DNA of 50,594 nucleotides from Pseudomonadota bacterium. GTDB lineage: Bacteria; Desulfobacterota; Binatia; UBA12015. The first letter of the stretch is position 1, and the number at the start of each line of letters is the position of its first letter. Of this stretch, positions 18,998 through 27,256 are shown piece after piece. The notes under the pieces were generated by a model, which worked only from the letters and a program-made list of their open reading frames with translations, was not told the DNA's origin and did no database searches. Made by a program: the position numbers and the translations under genes. The DNA is taken from NCBI GenBank assembly GCA_005777805.1, contig SXLG01000071.1, forward strand, positions 1-50,594, given 5' to 3'.

Positions 18998-20025
18998 GAC
19001 CACGGCGGCGCTCCCTCGATCATCTCGACGCCGGCCCCGCTGCGTGCGCGCAGCACCGCCTGGACGCCGGGTACGGTTGCGAGCCGGGTCGCGATGACCT
19101 CGAGGTCGTTCTCGAGGCAGAGGGCCTTGACCTGCGGTCCGGCATCCATCGTGAACCACGCTGCCACGCCCTCGGCGCGCAAGCGCCGGATCTCGTCGAT
19201 CACGGCGAGCGAACCCGGTCGCCAGTACATCACCGGCGGGCGGGCCGCGAAGCAGGTCGCGTGCATACGCAGGCAATTCTGCTCGGCGATCGTGCCCAGG
19301 GCCGTCAGGTCGTGCGCGCCGACGGCTTGGCGCGCTGCGGCGAGGTCGGCATCCTGCCCCGCGATCCAGGCCTCGAAGAAAGGTGAGGTTTGGGCCACGT
19401 GCTCCATCGCGTCACGCGACGGAATGGCCTTGGGGCCGTGCTCGATCACGGCCACGGCCATCGCCAGCGGCCAGTTGTCGCCGCCTGCAAGCGGCTCGGC
19501 GAAGGAGTCTTCGCCGTCGGGGCGCCGTCCGCGGTGCCATTCCACGAGCCCACCGAAGACCGAGCGCGCCGCCGAGCCCGATCCCTGCCGCGCCAGCCGC
19601 GACAGCTCACGCCGGTCGCGGCTCAGTCCGAGCGCCGAGAGACCCGCTGCCGCCGTCGCGCAGAAGATCGCCGCCGAGGAGGCGAGACCTGCACCCACGG
19701 GGAAACCGATTCCGACCTCGACCGCGAGGGGCGGAGCCCCGGGAGCGAACTCTCGCAGGCGCTCGAGAAAGGCCTCCATCCGGCGTGCTGCCGTGCCCTC
19801 GACCGCCTGGCCCGCACTCATGAACGCTGGCGCGCCCGCCGCTCTGGGCCCGACCGAGGCCGTCGCCTCCAGTCCCGCCAGCGTCAGCGAGAGGCTGCCG
19901 ACAGCCGGGAGGTTCAGTGGGCCCGGTCGCTTCCCCCAGTACTTGACCAGGGCGACGTTCGCTCTCGCGCATGCGGTTGCGGGCATTTTGGATCGAGCCG
20001 GTCCCCCGCCGGCATCGCGCGTCAT
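18994..20025 (-). CDS. mvaD: Diphosphomevalonate decarboxylase
   Basis: A 343-residue GHMP-superfamily enzyme that makes isopentenyl diphosphate from diphosphomevalonate with ATP and loss of carbon dioxide. Diagnostic segments are ANVALVKYWGKR (22-33), NLPAVGSLSLTL, FPVGAGLASSAA, and RQGSGSAARSVFGGLVEW, which holds the Ser/Arg substrate contacts. FTMDAGPQVK near the C-terminus is also typical. The ATG at 20025 is used; another ATG at 19986 would give a start 13 residues later and still keep the first motif. This is the first gene of the operon, with 169 bases to the divergent XRE gene. Confidence 0.94.
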   Translation of the reverse strand: MTRDAGGGPARSKMPATACARANVALVKYWGKRPGPLNLPAVGSLSLTLAGLEATASVGPRAAGAPAFMSAGQAVEGTAARRMEAFLERLREFAPGAPPLAVEVGIGFPVGAGLASSAAIFCATAAAGLSALGLSRDRRELSRLARQGSGSAARSVFGGLVEWHRGRRPDGEDSFAEPLAGGDNWPLAMAVAVIEHGPKAIPSRDAMEHVAQTSPFFEAWIAGQDADLAAARQAVGAHDLTALGTIAEQNCLRMHATCFAARPPVMYWRPGSLAVIDEIRRLRAEGVAAWFTMDAGPQVKALCLENDLEVIATRLATVPGVQAVLRARSGAGVEMIEGAPPWS

Positions 20026-25706: not shown

Positions 25707-26492
25707 TCAGCAGCCGCTCCAACGTGGCTTGCGCTTCTCGGCGAACGCAAGAGGCCCCTCGCGGGCATCGTCCGAGGTGAAGAGGGTCCGGACCGCCGGG
25801 TAGAGCGCCGGTGAGATGGATTCGGCCAGCGGGCGGTCGAGGCTGTCCAGCGCGGCCTGCTTGGTCGCCCGGATGCTGAGCGGTGAGCATTCCAGGATCC
25901 GCGCGACCCAGCGCTCGACCGCGGCTTCGAGTTCGCCGAGCGCCACCACCTCGTTGACGAGTCCCAGCTCGAGCGCAGGCGCGGCCGGGAGCGTCTCGCC
26001 GGTCAACAGCAACCCCATCGCCTGTTTGAGCGGGAGCTGCCGGACCAGACGCTGCGCCCCCCCGGCGGCCGCCATCAGCCCAACCCGGGGTTCGGGCAGA
26101 CCGAAGCGCGCATGGTCGGCGGCGATGATCAGATCGCAGGCCAGCGCGAGTTCGACGCCGCCGCCCAGAGCCAGGCCGTTCACTCGCGCGATCAGTGGCT
26201 TGACGAGATCGAAGCGGCCGCACAGGCCACCGAAACCACCCGGCGGAAAGGGCGGCATGCGGCCTGCGTTCTGGGCGGTCCACTTGAGGTCGTTACCCGC
26301 CGAGAACGCCCGCTCGCCGGCCCCGGTGAGCACCGCCAGCCAGATGTCGGGATCGGTCGCGATCTCGTTCCAGATCGCCTCGAGCCGATCGTGACAGGGG
26401 GGATGAAGCGCGTTCATCACCTCGGGCCGGTTGAGCGTGACCCAGGCCACATGGCCCCTGCGCTCGAAGAGGATGTCTTCCTTGCCTGCCAC
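25707..26492 (-). CDS. Enoyl-CoA hydratase, both catalytic glutamates present
   Basis: A 261-residue crotonase with a canonical active site. The oxyanion loop is AFSAGNDL; GGGVELALACDL holds the first catalytic Glu and FGLPEPRVGLM the second. The C-terminus ends in AFAEKRKPRW, shared by hydratase-type crotonases and by the other two crotonases in this window. It should hydrate 2-enoyl-CoA in fatty-acid or similar degradation. The start is at 26492 (AGKEDILFE); the first codons after it match the family N-terminus (HVAWVTLNRPEVMNAL). It is flanked by efp (convergent) and a gene-free interval. Confidence 0.92.
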   Translation of the reverse strand: MAGKEDILFERRGHVAWVTLNRPEVMNALHPPCHDRLEAIWNEIATDPDIWLAVLTGAGERAFSAGNDLKWTAQNAGRMPPFPPGGFGGLCGRFDLVKPLIARVNGLALGGGVELALACDLIIAADHARFGLPEPRVGLMAAAGGAQRLVRQLPLKQAMGLLLTGETLPAAPALELGLVNEVVALGELEAAVERWVARILECSPLSIRATKQAALDSLDRPLAESISPALYPAVRTLFTSDDAREGPLAFAEKRKPRWSGC

Positions 26493-26563
26493 GATGCTCC
26501 GTCCCCTTTTTGCTGCGCGTCGATCCCGTCGCCCGATTTCTCGCGATGTGGAGAGCGCGCTTA

Positions 26564-26592
26564 TTTACAGCCGCGAGGAACCGGCGTAGCAT
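26564..26592 (+). promoter_or_regulatory. Possible sigma70-type promoter on + strand
   Basis: TTTACA (26564-26569), 17 bases and TAGCAT (26587-26592) resemble a -35/-10 pair on +, within a short AT-rich patch of an otherwise very GC-rich gap. It would start a transcript near 26600, running through the structured RNA element and ending at its T-run near 26957. Neither box is a perfect match. Confidence 0.35.
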
Positions 26593-26789
26593 TCGCTCAG
26601 ACCCGGACGAACACAGCGTCCGAGAACCGGCGCGCGGCACGGGGCCGACGCGTCGGTGGGTCAAGCCCGGAGGGTGGCAGCGGCGGTCATTGGACGGGTG
26701 ATCGATGCGGGACTGGCCCCGCGAACTGGTCGACGACCGAGGGGTTATCGACGGCGCCGGGAACGGGAGGTGATCGTCAAGTGAGCGAA

Positions 26790-26957
26790 AGTACTCAGGT
26801 GACCTGTGAGGTGGTGGCCTCCTAGGCCTGTCCACGATATTTCCGTTCGTGGTGGCCTGGAGATGCCAGGCGCCACCGGCCCCGGGGACACCCCGCTCCA
26901 CCAGCGGGGCCGCATCGGCGACAGTCGATGCAGGATGCGTCCCCGGGGCTAATTTTT
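26790..26957 (+). ncRNA. Candidate structured non-coding RNA ending in a terminator-like T-run
   Basis: This part of the 530-base gap 26493-27022 has no credible protein but a dense series of perfect hairpins on one strand. They are GGCCT/AGGCC (26816-26828), CCACGA/TCGTGG (26832-26852), and GCCTGG/CCAGGC (26855-26871). Then an 11-bp stem, GCCCCGGGGAC (26879-26889) with GTCCCCGGGGC (26939-26949), encloses two more hairpins: CCCCGC/GCGGGG (26891-26909) and GCATCG/CGATGC (26912-26931). Five Ts follow at 26953-26957. The T-run makes + the likely strand, while both flanking genes are on -. I cannot match it to a known RNA class; 5-prime end unknown. Confidence 0.55.
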
Positions 26958-27022
26958 ACGCGGTGCCGCTGACCAAATGGGCCGCAGGAGAAGTCACAGG
27001 GCCAGCCTGTGCGGCGACTCGT

Positions 27023-27256
27023 TCAACCTCCGGCGAGCGGCGGGAAGAGATCGAGTTCGTCGTCAGGTCGAAGTGCGGCGGTCATTTCGCACTTCTCGCC
27101 GCCGGCGAAGGCCACGCCGGCAAATCCCTCGGGGATGCCCAGCGCCCGGGCCACCGTGGCCGCACTCGCCCCGGCGGGGACATCGATCTCCACGACGTTG
27201 TCGCTGGCGCCCGGCGGCAGGTAGCCGCGCAGGCCTGCGTGCAATCGCACCCGCAC
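27023..27256 (-). CDS. MoaD/ThiS-family sulfur carrier protein
   Basis: A 77-residue ubiquitin-like protein that ends exactly in Gly-Gly (LFPPLAGG), the tail that is adenylated and thiocarboxylated in sulfur carriers. Other fold marks are VEIDVPAGASAATVARALG and DELDLFPPLAGG. The start is the GTG at 27256 behind GGAGGG; a second GTG two codons in is possible. It follows the rhodanese-ThiF gene by 19 bases and is the obvious substrate of that adenylyltransferase. Whether the sulfur goes to molybdopterin, thiamin, cysteine or another product cannot be told; no moaE or thiG is here. Confidence 0.9.
   Translation of the reverse strand: MRVRLHAGLRGYLPPGASDNVVEIDVPAGASAATVARALGIPEGFAGVAFAGGEKCEMTAALRPDDELDLFPPLAGG

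Follow-up and report, generated by a model that had tools for sequence, protein, structure and literature searches.

A cluster of hairpins in the window, by which we mean the whole 50,594-nt stretch of DNA analysed here, is identified by sequence comparison as the 3′ half of a predicted independent small RNA gene containing a tiny coding frame, 14 codons in this copy. We lean, by a modest measure, toward the view that this single-copy, independently transcribed RNA (~360 nt), which has diverged from its relative, the actinobacterial sRNA Ms_IGR-5, would be a translated, structure-gated sRNA in which the codons of the frame also take part in the fold.

Transcription unit and folded elements

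The RNA lies in a gap without genes (about 26493-27022) between two minus-strand genes (Table 1), and the hairpins, closing stem, T-run and promoter described in an initial annotation were all found in place when the sequence was re-inspected. Six perfect stems fall within 26817-26949 of the plus strand. The three 5′ stems of the cluster are GCCT/AGGC, CCACGA/TCGTGG and GCCTGG/CCAGGC; the 11-bp closing stem, GCCCCGGGGAC/GTCCCCGGGGC, encloses CCCCGC/GCGGGG and GCATCG/CGATGC and is followed by TAATTTTT. The fold of 26780-26962 has an energy of -100.2 kcal/mol versus -74.2 on average for shuffled sequences (z -5.3, 0/200), and the opposite strand is equally stable (z -5.5), so that folding energy says nothing about the strand. 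The plus strand is instead assigned from the promoter, the reading frame and the T-run.

A promoter scan of the region returned TTTACA-17-TAGCAT as its sole hit (0.1 expected), thereby recovering the boxes of the initial annotation, and these line up in 22/22 relatives from the class amid flanking DNA that is mostly unconserved. In most other phyla the boxes are placed for an RNA start 12-16 nt before the Shine-Dalgarno (SD) element. Within the 5′ domain, the four outer pairs of the hairpin nearest the expected start are intact in 18/18 sequences (72/72 cells; shuffles reach at most 67), as counted by script; the MAFFT alignment slipped there. A terminator scan of the region, which takes loops of 3-8 only, reported none, the terminator here being branched. 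Comparison among relatives establishes a promoter and an intrinsic terminator predicted to belong to the RNA itself, and the predicted plus-strand transcript spanning 26599-26957 is well supported. The earlier picture, in which a structured RNA of some 360 bases is read independently from the plus strand between a promoter and a terminator of its own, is in this respect upheld by comparison.

Table 1. Predicted features of the RNA locus and its flanking genes (window coordinates).
Feature	Position	Strand	Basis or remark
Enoyl-CoA-hydratase-like gene	25707-26492	-	flanks gap
Sigma-70-type promoter TTTACA-17-TAGCAT; start expected near 26599	26564-26592	+	boxes aligned in 22/22 class relatives
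5′ hairpin GGACG-AACACAG-CGTCC, conserved CACAG-type loop	26605-26621	+	outer pairs conserved with compensatory changes
5′ domain hairpin GCGGGACTGGCCCCGC	26707-26722	+	conserved in class (alignment)
Shine-Dalgarno element GGGAGGTGATC	26765-26775	+	11 bp with 16S 3′ tail
Micro-ORF, GTG start, MSESTQVTCEVVAS, TAG stop	26781-26825	+	frame conservation
GGTG in ORF, 5′ side of proposed pseudoknot with 26899-26902	26798-26801	+	GGUG/CACC almost invariant in class
P1 5′ strand GGTGGT, within codons E-V-V	26810-26815	+	covariation
P2 hairpin GCCT-CCT-AGGC, contains stop codon	26817-26827	+	covariation; a sense codon shows C-G to U-G to U-A steps
P3 hairpin CCACGA/TCGTGG	26832-26852	+	covariation, 31-sequence alignment
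P4 hairpin GCCTGG/CCAGGC	26855-26871	+	covariation, both alignments
P1 3′ strand GCCACC	26872-26877	+	covariation, both alignments
P5, 11-bp closing stem of terminator; P6 (26891-26909) and P7 (26912-26931) inside	26879-26949	+	double changes in 10/10 counted pairs
CACC in P6 loop, 3′ side of proposed pseudoknot	26899-26902	+	class invariance; covarying counterpart in Actinomycetota
Terminator T-run	26953-26957	+	sequence; relatives' T-runs longer
MoaD/ThiS-like gene	27023-27256	-	flanks gap on other side

Searching at the DNA level recovered copies from across the window's genus, family and class. Among 12 family members, 97.9% of cells are paired and 11 pairs show double changes, counted on a hand-made structure in an alignment that was not fitted to a model. 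Because MAFFT misplaced the terminator stem when applied to the whole class, modelling began with the window's family, and the covariance model R1 derives from these 12 sequences only. R1 lands on the correct place in the actinobacterial copies (best E 4e-5); its matches extend to the remainder of the class, to Rokubacteria and to Nitrospirae, with weaker ones in Myxococcales and Actinomycetota. In the 31-sequence alignment A4, 97.5% of cells are paired, and its covariation score is 0.459 versus 0.141 for shuffled alignments (0/500) and no more than 0.072 when the partners are slid; fitting to R1 biases A4 toward the structure, a bias that the 12-sequence alignment does not share. Double changes occur in 33/43 pairs of A4, so that preservation of the stems by paired changes in relatives, the check proposed with the initial annotation, was borne out.

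Two variant architectures were noticed within the class. In most of four loci from families f11 and f13 (L020, L021, L024 and L026), an insertion of ~20-150 nt separates the stop hairpin from P4 and has a second SD-like motif, TGAGGTGAT, at its end, immediately upstream of the conserved GCCTGG hairpin. Family f2 (L189-L194) has a distinct type with the promoter directly before the SD, a peptide ending in C-E-V-A-E/G-T, and a 9-bp helix directly after the stop; P1 covaries there (GGUGGCUGAG/CUCAGUCACC, GGUGGCUGGG/CCCAGUCACC).

Relation to Ms_IGR-5 and distribution

The RNA had been regarded as an orphan, a view contradicted by the Rfam covariance-model search that had been proposed as a check. 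Rfam model RF02471 (Ms_IGR-5, 'Actinobacteria sRNA') matches 26763-26957 over model positions 1-184 (35.7 bits, E 1.4e-6), and this is the best RF02471 place in the genome. The match runs end to end, consistent with homology over the whole RNA, and its score lies below the RF02471 gathering score of 45; by score the window RNA is no member of the family, and by descent it is a predicted relative, part of a multi-phylum group. Actinobacterial relatives score 63-176 bits against the same model and one Zixibacteria locus 55.9 bits, and loci in several other phyla depart from the restriction of RF02471 to Actinobacteria. The remainder of the earlier reading, a structured independent RNA on the plus strand, stands, although it missed the conserved micro-ORF. 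That it could not place the RNA in the common classes is also in line with the searches: the Rfam search gave no match at the locus to 6S, RNase P, SRP or riboswitch models, and neither ARAGORN nor Rfam placed a tRNA-like domain there that would suggest a tmRNA or tRNA-like identity. A serC leader match (E 2.7) was at noise level and was discarded. A 93-nt tRNA-Arg (CCG) called by ARAGORN on the minus strand elsewhere in the window (19673-19765) is absent at the Rfam tRNA cut-off, suggesting an atypical gene or a false call.

The name Ms_IGR-5 traces to IGR-5 of Mycobacterium smegmatis, according to a passage in PMC10454040 that cites the original work. RNA-seq supports Ms_IGR-5 in S. lividans (PMC8079986), and in S. 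avermitilis it is an sRNA transcription unit (PMC8780764). A search of the open-licence literature returned no paper reporting the frame or copies outside Actinobacteria, no occurrence of the peptide strings, and nothing for Rv0812 and Rv0813c. The window copy and Ms_IGR-5 share the same order of elements (SD, GUGAGGUGG core with TAG, P1, branched terminator stem), and the actinobacterial copies likewise have a micro-ORF. The window copy differs in its long 5′ domain with hairpins of its own, its weaker SD, its peptide end C-E-V-V-A-S, and a terminator loop with CACC versus GUCC in Ms_IGR-5. Furthermore, Ms_IGR-5 is entered in Rfam as a non-coding sRNA of Actinobacteria, whereas the window RNA has a reading frame and lies outside that group.

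A pattern scan using one genome per species (SD element, core and TAG; start codon not required) gave at least 120 loci, with about two chance matches estimated in the whole collection from the length of the pattern. Among the matches listed (80 record titles), Actinomycetota predominate, accompanied by Acidobacteriota, Rokubacteria, Zixibacteria, Myxococcales, Lujinxingiaceae, Leptospirales, Spirochaetia and Nitrospirae, as well as one assembly titled 'Deltaproteobacteria' that belongs to the window's own class (same place as G025). Predicted relatives of the RNA are thus found in about eight phyla, including Actinomycetota, Acidobacteriota, Rokubacteria, Zixibacteria, Myxococcota, Spirochaetota and Nitrospirota. 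Within the window's own class, the sequence pattern places the RNA in 52/118 genomes, never more than once per genome, and R2, a model built from A4, in 51/118. Fits in a phylum-wide draw of 148 genomes were nearly confined to that class (three of its five genomes, plus one apparent chance match), which indicates that the RNA is patchy within its phylum. Several families of the class (f9, f10 and f12) have good completeness and no copy by pattern or model, suggestive of loss or strong divergence. The RNA is single-copy, one per genome, and the neighbouring genes and their strands are not conserved among relatives. Viral contigs gave no match, and the search of plasmids returned one copy, on a Nocardia megareplicon.

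What has been filed as an actinobacterial non-coding sRNA would accordingly extend over about eight phyla and include a conserved frame with structural codons, the Rfam cut-off and label having concealed the distant relatives of RF02471. Such wide conservation of a single-copy sRNA is unusual outside the housekeeping RNAs and points to a basic role, probably near translation.

The micro-ORF and its codons as structural partners

Common to the copies are, in order, an element of the GGAGGTG(A/G)TC type, the start codon, a segment that varies between copies, and x-GT-GAG-GTG-G; the resulting frame of 12-20 codons ends x-E-V-(V/A)-x-x-stop. Among the matches listed, 120/120 loci carry an in-frame start (ATG, GTG or TTG) 7-13 nt downstream of GGAGG, with no stop between start and core. 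When class relatives are included, a well-placed start and an open frame are present in 162/162 unique copies (10 and 0 in the other frames), and the comparison establishes the conserved frame as a predicted feature of the group. The peptide is 12 residues long in almost every copy from Actinomycetota (MYSNRTREVAVR, MIASWTCEVAAR) and 12-20 elsewhere (MTSSDGSCSKRPGEVAAT, MINYLKATGEVALF, MCNPTVICEVVAS); its N-terminal half is poorly conserved and variable in sequence and length. The 24 nt preceding the core average 45% GC versus 65-67% around them. Searches of NCBIfam and Pfam with extended peptides gave nothing, as expected at such length.

Pairing between the SD and the 16S 3′ tail extends over 15-20 bp in most relatives and 11 bp in the window copy, where other matches of 10-11 bp to the tail are also present in the window. 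In an RNA-bearing genome, a 16S gene was confirmed to end with the GGATCACCTCCTT tail; the 70%-complete assembly of the window's own genome did not yield its 16S tail. The idea of a 13-mer exclusive to 16S and this RNA was dropped, as G016 and G020 contain 16S-tail-like 13-mers that are not 16S genes. Many of the Actinomycetota copies (L032-L151) combine the strongest SD elements with the weak start TTG. The core GUGAGGUGGU (26806-26815 in the window, and the same in all copies) is itself SD-like, and lies ~9 nt before the stop, where a terminating ribosome could base-pair with it through the 16S tail. Contact with ribosomes is supported by published mycobacterial Ribo-seq, in which MS_IGR-5 homologues of M. 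abscessus and M. smegmatis have significant ribosomal reads, with the caution that reads appear on many non-coding RNAs (PMC4974804). Translation of the micro-ORF in the window organism is what we infer from these observations.

The last codons of the ORF pair with a strand just upstream of the terminator to form P1, a predicted helix that covariation demonstrates. In Actinomycetota it is often a 10-bp helix (GGUGGCUGUC/GACAGUCACC, GGUGGUUGUC/GACAACCACC, GGUGGCUACG/CGUAGCCACC), and within the window's class its pairs are mostly invariant. Among the matches listed, all five variable positions pair in 67/120 loci versus a maximum of 35 in 2000 permutations, with kinship ignored; the test is anchored, locating the partner by its invariant part only, and replaced an unanchored search that was too lax. 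A pseudoknot between codons further upstream and the terminator loop is supported, mainly in Actinomycetota, where the candidate counterparts are GGACN with NGUCC and GGAUG with CAUCC. The N of GGACN/NGUCC is paired in 50/81 cases, as compared with a mean of 34 and a maximum of 48 in 5000 shuffles, kinship again being ignored.

Proposed mechanism and competing explanations

In the proposed mechanism, transcription would start at the RNA's own promoter and end at its intrinsic terminator, and the SD, which in most relatives is complementary to the entire 16S 3′ tail, would recruit a ribosome to read the 12-20-codon frame ending E-V-(V/A)-x-x-stop. In the finished RNA the last codons would pair with the pre-terminator strand and the upstream codons with the terminator loop. 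As the bases engaged by the ribosome are also those of the fold, the two states would be mutually exclusive and the RNA would switch between them, alternating between an open, ribosome-occupied form and a closed one: translation would open the RNA, and the finished, untranslated RNA would close. The lack of conservation of neighbours and their strands makes a cis target unlikely and suggests a role in trans, with one of the two forms presumably acting, most likely either on the loading of ribosomes or on further RNAs; the peptide itself could be a by-product or else a second product. A more far-reaching version, which we offer tentatively and hold to be doubtful, is that of a ribosome-gated RNA class in about eight phyla, in which a ribosome captured via near-complete 16S-tail complementarity would read the micro-ORF and open the helix and the terminator pseudoknot that lock its codons; the RNA would in this way signal the supply of ribosomes in trans.

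Dual-function sRNAs such as SgrS/SgrT, SR1/SR1P and RNAIII likewise combine a short ORF and conserved RNA structure in a small independent transcript, and the window RNA, with its predicted conserved ORF in such a transcript, fits this description. They are limited to narrow lineages, whereas the group described here spans many phyla and, unlike them, would use the codons of its ORF as structural partners.

That the RNA is a plain small mRNA, with the 12-20-residue peptide as its product and the 3′ structure only stabilizing and terminating the message, would explain the frame intact in all 162 copies and the conserved peptide end E-V-(V/A)-x-x; we consider it unlikely, however, given a peptide N-terminal half that varies freely in sequence and length, codons tied to pairing with the 3′ part, and a 3′ part no less conserved than the frame. 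A non-coding decoy that binds the 16S 3′ tail through its SD and holds 30S subunits, the frame being a relic or a subunit positioner, appears slightly less likely again. The 15-20 bp complementarity of most relatives, far above that of random stretches, and the common weak TTG starts of Actinomycetota are in keeping with a decoy, but start codon, frame and stop are preserved everywhere and the window copy has 11 bp only.

Leader-peptide attenuators of the trp and erm type have a short ORF whose translation changes pairing beside a terminator, and translation of the window ORF would similarly alter pairing near its terminator, by opening a helix beside it in the classical layout. A cis-acting attenuator of a downstream gene is nonetheless very improbable here: transcription would stop at the terminator, the gene downstream lies on the opposite strand, and among relatives neither its kind nor its strand is conserved, leaving no conserved same-strand gene to regulate. 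Chance hairpins in GC-rich DNA, which the equally good fold of the opposite strand would favor, have a negligible probability and are refuted by the covariation, the conserved promoter, the conserved frame and the homologues in many phyla.
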